This document shows, piece by piece, positions 23,743-26,786 of a DNA stretch of 34,883 nucleotides. The DNA is from an uncultured Anaeromyxobacter sp. GTDB taxonomy: Bacteria; Myxococcota; Myxococcia; Myxococcales; Anaeromyxobacteraceae. The stretch is from the NCBI GenBank assembly GCA_903874275.1, contig CAIQRS010000113.1, positions 1 to 34,883 of the forward strand. The letters run 5' to 3'. Position 1 is the stretch's first letter. Every line of letters begins with the position of its first letter. The translations under genes and the position numbers were made by a program. The notes beneath the pieces were generated by a model, which saw only the letters and a list, made by a program, of their open reading frames with translations, did no database searches and had not been told where the DNA came from.

Positions 23743-24680
23743 CCATCGGTGAATCGCTCCGCACCGGCTTCCGGCGCGCCACCCGCTGGCGGCTGCTGCT
23801 CCTCTGCGCGATCCTCTCGGCCGTCCCGGCCGCGCTGGCCACCCTGCCGATCTGGGGGCTCCTCTCCGGGCTGCTCGACCACGCGCCCCGGGCCGCCCTG
23901 CTCGCCTCGGGGCTCGAGGGCTCCTGGTTCCCCGACCTGGCCCGGGCGCTGGCGGACAGCGCCGCCGGGCAGGCCGTTCCCGGTGGCCTGCTCTCCTCCG
24001 TGGCGGTCGCGCTCCTCCTCGGACCGGCCCTCGCCGGGGCCATGCTCGCCGAGGCGGGCGCACCGCAGCCGCTCCACTTCCGGGCGCTCCTCACCGGCGC
24101 CGGCCGCTTCTACGCCAGGATGTTCCGCACGGTGCTGGTCGCGGCGATCCCGCTCGGGCTCTTCGCCCTGGGGGCGGCGGCGATCTCGAAGGGCGCCGAG
24201 GCGGCGGTCGAGAAGGCGGTCACCGAGGGTGCGGCCGGCTCGCTGCAGCGCTGGTCGCTCCTCGCCGGCATGGCCCTCCTCTTCGTCGCCCACCTCACGC
24301 TCGACGCCGGCCGCGCCCGGATGGCCTCCCAGCCGGAGCGGCGCAGCGCGCTCAAGGCCTGGTTCTCCGGGACCTGGCTCGTGCTGCGCCACCCCGTCCA
24401 CGCCGTCGCGATCGGCCTGGCGGGCGCGCTTTCCGGGCCGGTCCTGGGACTCGTGGTGATGGCGTTCCGGGAGCGGCTCCCGGCCGGACCGCGCTGGGCG
24501 GTGGTGGCGGGGGTCCTCCTCGCCCAGGTCGCCGCGATGGCGATCGGGTGGGGCAGGGCGGTGCGGCTCTGCGGGCTCGTCCGGCTCTCCCGCGACGACC
24601 GGGAGGCGCGGCTCGCGCGGCTCAGCCGCCGCCCGCCGGTTCCTTCTCCGGCTCCTCCGCCAGCAGATCTTCCATCGTGA
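23739..24680 (+). CDS. Polytopic membrane protein coupled to the M1 peptidase
   Basis: 313 residues, not recognised. About six hydrophobic segments (near residues 18-48, 84-108, 128-150, 170-188, 218-240 and 250-272) with basic loops between (RRATRWR, GRARMASQPERR). Its GTG start overlaps the peptidase stop (GTGA), and no other ribosome site is obvious, so its translation depends on the peptidase gene. The Pro-rich last 20 residues are read from DNA that also encodes the end of the convergent diiron protein (59-base overlap). It could form a membrane partner or carrier for the peptidase or its products; this is inference from coupling only. Confidence 0.7.
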   Translation: MTIGESLRTGFRRATRWRLLLLCAILSAVPAALATLPIWGLLSGLLDHAPRAALLASGLEGSWFPDLARALADSAAGQAVPGGLLSSVAVALLLGPALAGAMLAEAGAPQPLHFRALLTGAGRFYARMFRTVLVAAIPLGLFALGAAAISKGAEAAVEKAVTEGAAGSLQRWSLLAGMALLFVAHLTLDAGRARMASQPERRSALKAWFSGTWLVLRHPVHAVAIGLAGALSGPVLGLVVMAFRERLPAGPRWAVVAGVLLAQVAAMAIGWGRAVRLCGLVRLSRDDREARLARLSRRPPVPSPAPPPADLPS

Positions 24681-25740
24681 GATCGGGCGCCGCCTTCTCG
24701 TTCTCGAAGCGCAGCAAGCCCTCCCGCTCGTAGCGGGGGCGGATCCGGTCGGAGAGCAGGCCGATCGCCTTCAGATTCGGCACGATGCGCCGGAACATGG
24801 TCTCCCGGAAGAGCCCCATCATCGGCGAGGCCAGGATGGTCCGGTCCCATTCGGCCCGGGACACCTCGTGCCCGAAGAACTCCCCGTGGAGCTCGCGGGC
24901 CAGGAAGCGGTTCCGCAAGAGGAGCGCCACCTCGAAGGCCCAGTCCTCGCGCTCCCGGCGCGCCGGCTCCTCGATCCCCTCCCTGTAGTGGCGGCGCAGC
25001 GCGGCCACGCCGAAGTGGACGTGGCGGGCCTCGTCGGTGATGACGTTCTTCAGGACGTCGCGCAGGACCGGATCGGAGGTGAGCCGCCGGATCATGCCGA
25101 AGGCCCCCAGCGCCAGCCCCTCGATGAGGATCTGCATGCCGAGGAACTTCACGTCCCAGCGGCCGTCGCTCATCAGGGCGTCGATCACCACGTAGAGGTT
25201 GTCGTCGATCTGGTAGAGCCACTCGAGCTTGGTCGTCAGGTAGCGGTGGAAGACCTCGACGTGGCGCCCCTCGTCCACCACCTGGGTCGAGCCGTAGAGC
25301 TTGGCATCCAGCCAGGGGACGGCCTCGGTGACCTGGGCGGCGGCGAAGAGCGCCCCCTGCTCGCCGTGGAGGAACTGGGAGAGGAGCCAGGAGGTGAGCG
25401 CGTGGGTGAGCATGGCGCGCTGCTCGGGCGACCCCTGCCGCCAGCCCCGCAGGGAGGCGAAGGGGACGAACGACTCGGGGAGCAGCGGCCTGGCCGGGTC
25501 GCGCGGCTCGACCGGGCGGCTCCAGTCGATGGCGGTGGCGCCGTTCCACTGGCTCTCCTTGGCGACCTCGTAGAGCCGGGCCAGCTCGGGGAAGCTCCGG
25601 TCGTACCCCCAGTCGAAGGTGGCGTCGAAGTCCACCCGCACCGTGGAGGTTCCGGTCCCGCGGCCACTGTGCTTCACGAGCCCGCGCCAGGCCGGTCCGA
25701 GGAGCGATCGGAGCACGCGGGGGTTCCTGGGGATGTCCAT
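24622..25740 (-). CDS. Diiron ferritin-like oxygenase family protein (AurF/CmlI-like spacing)
   Basis: 372-residue mostly helical protein with two copies of E-x28-D-E-x-R-H: Glu127 with DEGRH (156-160), and Glu207 with DEARH (236-240). This is the ligand set of a carboxylate-bridged diiron centre; the spacing is that reported for AurF/CmlI-type N-oxygenases (E-x28-37-D-E-x2-H) and related ferritin-like oxidases. Additional family-like text is HGEQGALFAAAQ and HVHFGVAALRRHY. There is no signal peptide, so it is presumably cytosolic. ATG 25740 lies one base after the stop of the cytochrome gene. It might use a reductant to hydroxylate, desaturate or N-oxidise a small molecule or acyl chain; the substrate is unknown, and it may be only a metal/oxidant handling ferritin relative. 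Confidence 0.7.
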   Translation of the reverse strand: MDIPRNPRVLRSLLGPAWRGLVKHSGRGTGTSTVRVDFDATFDWGYDRSFPELARLYEVAKESQWNGATAIDWSRPVEPRDPARPLLPESFVPFASLRGWRQGSPEQRAMLTHALTSWLLSQFLHGEQGALFAAAQVTEAVPWLDAKLYGSTQVVDEGRHVEVFHRYLTTKLEWLYQIDDNLYVVIDALMSDGRWDVKFLGMQILIEGLALGAFGMIRRLTSDPVLRDVLKNVITDEARHVHFGVAALRRHYREGIEEPARREREDWAFEVALLLRNRFLARELHGEFFGHEVSRAEWDRTILASPMMGLFRETMFRRIVPNLKAIGLLSDRIRPRYEREGLLRFENEKAAPDLTMEDLLAEEPEKEPAGGG

Positions 25741-25741
25741 G

Positions 25742-26170
25742 TCACGCCCTCCCGCGGGAGCGCCGCGACGCGCCCAGGAGGAAGCCCCCGGCGAGGACCA
25801 CCGCGAGCACCAGGCCGGCGTAGGGGAGGGCGACCCGCCACCAGGGGACGACGTTCTCACGCCCGAGCTTCGCGAGGAAGAGGGCCAGCGCCTTCCGGTC
25901 CTCGTCGTTGCCCCGGAAGGCGTGGGACATCTGTGGGCGGATGCGGCTCAGGTTGCCGATGTTCTCGTAGGCCTTCTCGTAGGTGCCCCACTTCTCCGGG
26001 GTGATGCGCGGGTGGAGCGGGTTGGTCACGCCGGGCCCCGGCTCGAAGACGTGGCAGGCGAAGCAGAAGTCGCGCATGCGGTCCTCGCCGCGCGCCATCG
26101 CCTCGGGGGTCTCGGGCGGTGCGGCGGCGGAGAGGAGGGCCAGCAGGGCGGCGAAGGGGGCGTGGTTCAC
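25742..26170 (-). CDS. Membrane-anchored small c-type cytochrome
   Basis: 142 residues. Signal peptide (PFAALLALLSAAAPPE), one haem c site CFACH (36-40), a probable axial Met81 in QMSHAFRG, and a C-terminal transmembrane helix (about 112-134) ending in the basic stop RRSRGR. The haem domain would thus face the periplasm, tethered to the inner membrane. GTG 26170 is chosen because GGAGGT lies four bases before it. It sits between the sigma factor (31 bases upstream) and the diiron protein (one base downstream). A single-haem mono-cytochrome of this type normally carries electrons; whether it supplies the diiron protein, which has no visible export signal, is unresolved. Confidence 0.85.
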   Translation of the reverse strand: MNHAPFAALLALLSAAAPPETPEAMARGEDRMRDFCFACHVFEPGPGVTNPLHPRITPEKWGTYEKAYENIGNLSRIRPQMSHAFRGNDEDRKALALFLAKLGRENVVPWWRVALPYAGLVLAVVLAGGFLLGASRRSRGRA

Positions 26171-26201
26171 GAGACCTCCAGGTAGGGTTCCGGATCGAGG
26201 C

Positions 26202-26786
26202 TCACCGGTCCAGCAGCCCCCGCTTCCTCGCCAGGGCGCCGAGCCGCTCCCTGATCCGCTCGAAGCGCTTGGTGAGGGTGTTGGGCTTCACCACCCGTCC
26301 ATCCCTGGACAGGACCTCGGCGCACTCGGCCCAGGACAGCCCCTGGTCGAGCCGCAGCGCGGCCAGCGCCCGGTCGTCCAGGGAGAGGGAGTCGCGCAGC
26401 GCCTTGAGATCCATCCTGCGCTGCTCGTGACGCTCGTCGGCGGCGGAGGCCACGGTCTCGGCGATGCGGGTGGCCTCGCCGGTCTCGAGCCGCCGGCGCC
26501 GGCTGCGCCAGGGCTGCTTGGCCGTGTCGCAGGCCACGTTCCAGGCGATGCGGTAGGCCCAGATCCGGAAGGGCGCGGCCCCACGAAACTCGGGCAGCCC
26601 GCGCCAGAGGTTCTCGGCGAACTGCGAGAAGGCCTCCCGCGCATCCTCCTCGTCGCCGAGGATCGACCGGAGGTAGCGGAGCACCTGCGGTCCGTACCCC
26701 TTGATGGCCGCGGTGGCGGCGGCCTCGGCCTTCCCGGCGGCGATCAGCCCACCGAGTTCCGCTTCCAGCTTCTCCGACTCGTCCAC
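26202..26786 (-). CDS. ECF-type RNA polymerase sigma factor
   Basis: 194-residue sigma-70 family protein with region 2 (about 28-96: LRYLRSILGDEEDAREAFSQ then FRIWAYRIAWNVACD) and region 4 (about 125-190: RDSLSLDDRALAALRLDQG, SWAECAEVL, KPNTLTKRFERIRERL) and no regions 1 or 3, hence extracytoplasmic-function type. GTG 26786 is used because GAGGAG sits five to six bases upstream; the ATG at 26790 is out of frame. It directs transcription of an unknown regulon, probably its own operon. No anti-sigma gene with a recognisable motif is adjacent; the downstream cytochrome is the nearest membrane protein. A 13-bp dyad precedes the ribosome site. Confidence 0.9.
   Translation of the reverse strand: MDESEKLEAELGGLIAAGKAEAAATAAIKGYGPQVLRYLRSILGDEEDAREAFSQFAENLWRGLPEFRGAAPFRIWAYRIAWNVACDTAKQPWRSRRRRLETGEATRIAETVASAADERHEQRRMDLKALRDSLSLDDRALAALRLDQGLSWAECAEVLSRDGRVVKPNTLTKRFERIRERLGALARKRGLLDR

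Follow-up and report, generated by a model that had tools for sequence, protein, structure and literature searches.

AurF-type enzymes are recognised by two iron motifs of the form E-x28-37-DE-xx-H, and in AzoC a seventh ligand, His-225, lies four residues before Glu-229 (PMC6783550). Among extracytoplasmic function (ECF) sigma factors, kinase-linked groups without an anti-sigma factor are on record (PMC8999054, PMC13147305); for six groups, control by a kinase is predicted (PMC8999054), and group ECF43 is marked by loss of the acidic DxxD/DAED motif of region sigma2.2 (PMC13147305, PMC8999054). Here we compare with these systems a locus of three genes, encoding a sigma factor, a cytochrome c and a diiron protein, in a 34,883-nucleotide stretch of DNA from an uncultured Anaeromyxobacter sp. 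(contig CAIQRS010000113.1, hereafter the window). An original prediction, made from the window alone, had read the three genes as a possible small redox-sensing circuit. We consider it moderately probable that the diiron gene is a TetR-branch oxygenase gene without its usual regulator, placed where the cargo downstream of a resident ECF sigma gene varies. The trio is a local neighbourhood and not a conserved redox circuit, and it rather likely joins two separately inherited pieces.

Gene structure of the locus and what lies behind the sigma gene

The three genes lie on contig 113 of the 5.07 Mb window genome (G000), all on the minus strand and with successive gaps of 31 and 1 nt. An open reading frame (ORF) check bore out this operon-like packing, which the original prediction had described. 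The first gene (26202..26786, GTG start) encodes an ECF-type sigma factor of 194 amino acids, the second (25742..26170, GTG start) a membrane-anchored mono-haem cytochrome c of 142 amino acids, and the third (24622..25740, ATG start) a ferritin-like, diiron oxygenase-type protein of the AurF superfamily, 372 amino acids in length. The twin motif of the diiron protein, already noted from the window, reads exactly E127-x28-D156-E157-x-R159-H160 and E207-x28-D236-E237-x-R239-H240, and both metal-ligand motifs were observed to be invariant in 42 aligned homologues. The protein has no visible export signal and is predicted to be cytosolic. The cytochrome has an N-terminal signal-like stretch, a single CxxCH and a C-terminal hydrophobic segment, read as a transmembrane (TM) helix, which is followed by the basic tail RRSRGRA; it is predicted to face the periplasm. 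As to class I cytochrome c (PF13442/PF00034), the CxxCH is present, and the PF13442 score of 25.3 bits falls just below the Pfam cut-off of 27.

In order to follow the trio across the genus, four genomes were compared: G000, G001, G002 and G003. Sigma orthologues, 73-80% identical, were found in all four and are syntenic. In the other three genomes the sigma gene occupies the same place between the same flanks, and these serve as markers of the conserved locus. In the window they are a divergent membrane protein with a bacterial PH domain (26970..27584, plus strand; PF10756 found in the G001 orthologue), a convergent multi-TM protein (23739..24680, plus strand) and an M1-peptidase-like gene (21598..23742, plus strand; PF01433 found in the G001 orthologue). 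At their 3' ends the convergent gene and the diiron gene overlap by 59 nt (24622-24680), and by 32 nt in G001.

The cytochrome and diiron genes are missing at the sigma locus in G002 and G003, that is, in two of the four genomes. Homology of the window DNA ends at 24616 (G002) or 24634 (G003) and restarts at 26200, directly past the sigma stop codon; the missing segment (24617..26199, minus strand) therefore coincides nearly base for base with the cytochrome-diiron pair. Behind the sigma gene, G003 carries a lipoprotein-like exported ORF, G002 an exported YCII-domain protein, G001 the YCII, cytochrome and diiron genes, and the window the cytochrome and diiron genes. Since the cargo differs across all four genomes, this slot varies from genome to genome. 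The gene order in G001 also departs from that of the window, an exported YCII-domain ORF of 147 amino acids standing between sigma and cytochrome. The YCII-domain protein maps to 8067-8507 of locus L030 in G001 and to 5534-5995 of locus L160 in G002, and none is found in the window, where the sigma-cytochrome junction is similar to the sigma-YCII junction, as if the YCII gene had been deleted.

The partners of the sigma gene are distributed differently. A cytochrome orthologue (86% identical) was found in G001 only, and the nearest paralogues (45-48%) lie elsewhere in the same two genomes, adjoining neither the sigma nor the diiron gene. A search for the diiron protein in 60 relatives yielded 12 orthologues with 56-91% identity, and the gene is present in 3 of 24 genomes of the family. 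At the loci examined, sigma and cytochrome genes adjoin it in the window and, elsewhere, only in G001; the A. oryzae gene is located elsewhere and has neither of the two beside it. The three-gene neighbourhood, for which a search across Myxococcota had been proposed, is thus confined to the window genome and one relative of the same genus, and this survey rules out a conserved sigma-cytochrome-diiron operon.

These observations bear directly on the proposal that the sigma factor is controlled by the cytochrome or the diiron protein in a circuit dedicated to redox or oxygen sensing. In its favour are the close packing of the genes in the window and in G001, the 1-nt cytochrome-diiron gap in both genomes and the lack of an anti-sigma gene beside the sigma gene. 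However, G002 and G003 retain the sigma gene without either partner, the diiron family lacks this sigma and this cytochrome at the other loci examined, and the predicted compartments differ, the haem being periplasmic and the diiron site cytosolic. Direct redox contact between cytochrome and diiron protein is unlikely, because the former is predicted to be periplasmic and the latter has no visible export signal. The original prediction had itself held that a lack of conservation would count against such a circuit, and this is largely what we found. We regard the circuit as very improbable: the observation behind it was true, but it had been over-interpreted.

Regulators and neighbours of the diiron family

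The diiron loci described here are the best 80 of 180 confirmed, drawn from 84,980 species genomes (Myxococcota, Planctomycetota, Acidobacteriota and others); regulators were counted over 83 non-duplicate loci, and the alignment holds 42 sequences. A simple script, in place of a published gene-finding program, called and labelled the genes in the relatives' loci, and the domain scans cover examples only. Across genera and phyla the family is 53-91% identical to the window protein. In 35 of the 83 loci the gene directly upstream on the same strand codes for a TetR-family regulator (gap -4 to +42, median 1 nt); in another 22 it codes for one of the MerR family (median gap 14 nt). As an internal control, members of the TetR cluster stood at position -1 in almost all cases within these regions. 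Nearly all loci of the MerR branch have a gene for an FAD/NAD + 2Fe-2S reductase at position -1 or -2. On the tree, the MerR/reductase branch is split from the TetR branch (100/100). Within the latter, the diiron proteins of the window, G001 and A. oryzae cluster together (100/98), with TetR-linked genes as their sister (97/95). No close homologue of the diiron-linked TetR was found elsewhere in the window genome. The original prediction had also offered an inducible oxygenase module; this part agrees with the relatives, whose diiron genes come after a TetR or MerR regulator and, in one branch, are joined by a reductase.

Near the diiron gene of relatives, Pfam also identified acyl-CoA carboxylase subunits and a fatty-acid desaturase; labels given by eye add an acyl-CoA dehydrogenase as well as an enoyl-CoA hydratase. 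The reductase-MerR-diiron cassette was seen in about 20 myxobacterial loci (L089-L121, for example L104 5855-7890), and between 10 and 14 such loci have acyl-CoA carboxylase genes nearby.

A second alternative takes the cytochrome and the diiron protein as a functional pair, such as a respiratory or detoxifying oxidase linked to the membrane, with the sigma gene merely upstream. As such a pair would have it, G002 and G003 lack both genes and G001 has both, again 1 nt apart. Yet this cytochrome is found at no other diiron locus examined, the A. oryzae diiron gene has no cytochrome, the two products are predicted on opposite sides of the membrane, and one branch of relatives has a gene for a cytosolic NAD(P)H-type reductase instead. 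We consider a functional pair unlikely. Probably the cytochrome carries electrons in the periplasm independently, and would share only the transcript with the diiron gene.

Returning to the variable cargo slot, we suggest the following. The resident ECF sigma gene, kept in the four genomes of the genus, would head a short operon-like run with exchangeable downstream cargo. The diiron gene, coming from the TetR-linked branch but here without its TetR gene, is most likely read through from a promoter before the sigma gene. ECF sigma factors often control their own promoter; if this one does, diiron expression would follow the signal of the sigma factor. The enzyme would most likely act with O2, its electrons being supplied by a soluble NAD(P)H-dependent flavin/iron-sulfur reductase, and the compound oxidised is probably an acyl or other lipophilic one.

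Several points weigh against this explanation. Co-transcription of the trio is read from the gaps between the genes. A sigma70-type scan, whose coverage does not extend to ECF promoters, returned no promoter or terminator. There is no close reductase homologue in the window genome, the best reaching 31%. The acyl substrate, though probable, is argued by analogy from neighbour genes and fold kinship, R2lox and aldehyde-deformylating oxygenase both binding long-chain ligands. Finally, insertion in one ancestor, loss in two, and transfer between G000 and G001 would leave the same pattern. The flanking genes place G002 about as near to the window as G001, and gain and loss cannot be separated, because these flanks do not put G001 clearly nearer and the genus is represented by only four genomes. 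An alignment of the four sequences upstream of the sigma gene gave no convincing shared ECF-type box outside the 5' end of the divergent gene, few as these sequences are.

Titles and abstracts of the literature on the diiron family, and on a sigma/cytochrome link in Anaeromyxobacter, contained nothing recognisable as this system. The locus is ordinary as a circuit and modestly interesting as a conserved, regulated and apparently undescribed diiron family. Its lasting value lies in this highly conserved family, which has invariant ligand motifs and for which we found no described function. The regulatory logic of the relatives, with TetR, or with MerR and a reductase of its own, would make both inducer and substrate directly testable, and the locus also illustrates how cargo is exchanged downstream of an ECF sigma gene that stays in place. 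More tentatively, the family could represent an undescribed class of regulated oxygenases in Myxococcota, Planctomycetota and Acidobacteriota with branch-specific control, here rewired to an ECF sigma factor by way of a swappable slot.

The sigma factor and its paralogues

The window sigma factor matched TIGR02937 (NCBIfam) over residues 23-182 with 53 bits against a cut-off of 42.9, and PF04542 (Pfam) with 39.7 bits against 24; it consists of sigma2 and sigma4 only, as expected of an ECF sigma factor. Related copies at 40-55% identity are spread through the family, each genome having between 3 and 17 matches when all strengths are counted. For 13 of 31 sampled copies, a kinase-motif protein of 566-1101 amino acids is encoded next door on the same strand, and the one such neighbour that was domain-scanned is a Hanks-type kinase (Pkinase) with TPR repeats. 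One ECF sigma family is thus seen to be strongly expanded in Anaeromyxobacter relatives, with many kinase-paired copies (L171, L172, L190-L192, L197, L198 and others). Small ORFs of 72-88 amino acids with the look of a GG leader (MDVKAMTMLGDEALxAVSGG...) adjoin paralogues of the window sigma gene in further genomes of the family, in tandem in two of three genomes (L165 1196-2909, plus strand; L174 4052-5408, minus strand; L170 5601-5834, plus strand). The original prediction had remarked that no anti-sigma gene adjoins the sigma gene, and this holds at the locus. A lone sigma factor is not unusual in these genomes, because the family has many copies, many of them kinase-adjacent, and ECF groups without an anti-sigma factor are already on record.

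The kinase-paired copies open up a further alternative, in which the sigma factor would be activated, as its kinase-linked paralogues may be, through phosphorylation by a Hanks-type kinase acting in trans, and the operon would answer the signal of that kinase. The 13 kinase-adjacent copies, one of them with a confirmed Pkinase-TPR neighbour, and the prediction of kinase control for six ECF groups (PMC8999054) are consistent with it. On the other hand, no Hanks-type kinase gene lies next to the sigma gene in the window, G001, G002 or G003, and the sigma2.2 segment of the window protein is still acidic, DEEDAREAF as against the QTTA motif of ECF43. We regard activation in trans as rather unlikely.

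Comparison with known enzyme and sigma families

The diiron protein shares with the N-oxygenases AurF, CmlI and AzoC a PF11583 (AurF) match above the gathering cut-off (39.4 bits against 29.6 in Pfam; found at E <= 0.01 in 38 of 42 relatives) and twin E-x(n)-DE-xx-H motifs that fit the published definition (PMC6783550). Unlike these enzymes, it has V233 in place of the seventh-ligand histidine, a position where valine is at least 90% conserved in the family; its first-motif Glu-to-Glu spacing is 30 residues, not 35; and no biosynthetic cluster surrounds its gene. Comparison with AurF/CmlI and R2-like profiles, advised by the original prediction, therefore gave a divided answer: PF11583 was passed, but the seventh ligand is absent and the R2lox cut-off was missed, leaving AurF membership at the Pfam level only.

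The AlphaFold2 model of the diiron protein (mean pLDDT 85.5) is, as modelled, of the R2lox/aldehyde-deformylating-oxygenase-like fold class. Its best fold match is R2lox 4ac8 (Z 19.9, root-mean-square deviation 3.2 over 243 residues), followed by aldehyde-deformylating oxygenase (Z 19.5 over 209 residues) and, at a Z of about 18, by VlmB and the R2 subunits of ribonucleotide reductase; with Foldseek by itself, the best E was 1.3e-3. Because these Z scores are near a tie, the fold points to a superfamily and not to a family. Among solved structures the top sequence match, the designed protein 9u78, is a short helix match of no functional meaning.

With R2lox the protein shares the top fold match and the six-ligand E/E/H + E/E/H pattern. 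It scores far under the NCBIfam equivalog cut-off (32.3 bits against 194), and weak matches were found in all 42 members. The ether cross-link pair, Val72-Tyr162 in the bacterial reference enzyme, is apparently absent: counting by ligand offset (Glu+3, Glu-5), with no residue-level structural alignment, the positions hold Ala130 and Met202. Cyanobacterial aldehyde-deformylating oxygenase, whose known members have a long-chain acyl ligand, is alike in its ferritin-like diiron fold; it differs in that the PF11266 cut-off was missed (17.5 bits against 28), about 80-100 extra N-terminal residues are present in the window protein, and no acyl-ACP reductase partner gene was noticed. Plain membership of AurF, R2lox or aldehyde-deformylating oxygenase was thus set aside, since each of the three misses at least one tested feature. 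Judged from its motifs and model, the protein is best called a member of an uncharacterised family of six-ligand ferritin-like diiron oxygenases, the metal being putative.

As regards the sigma factor, assignment as an ECF43-type sigma factor with an adjacent kinase was rejected, since the kinase neighbour is lacking and the acidic residues of region 2.2 are kept. Like the kinase-linked ECF43 factors EcfP and EcfK, it has no anti-sigma neighbour, and paralogues in the same genome family adjoin Hanks-type kinase genes; unlike them, it stands without an adjacent kinase and with an acidic sigma2.2.

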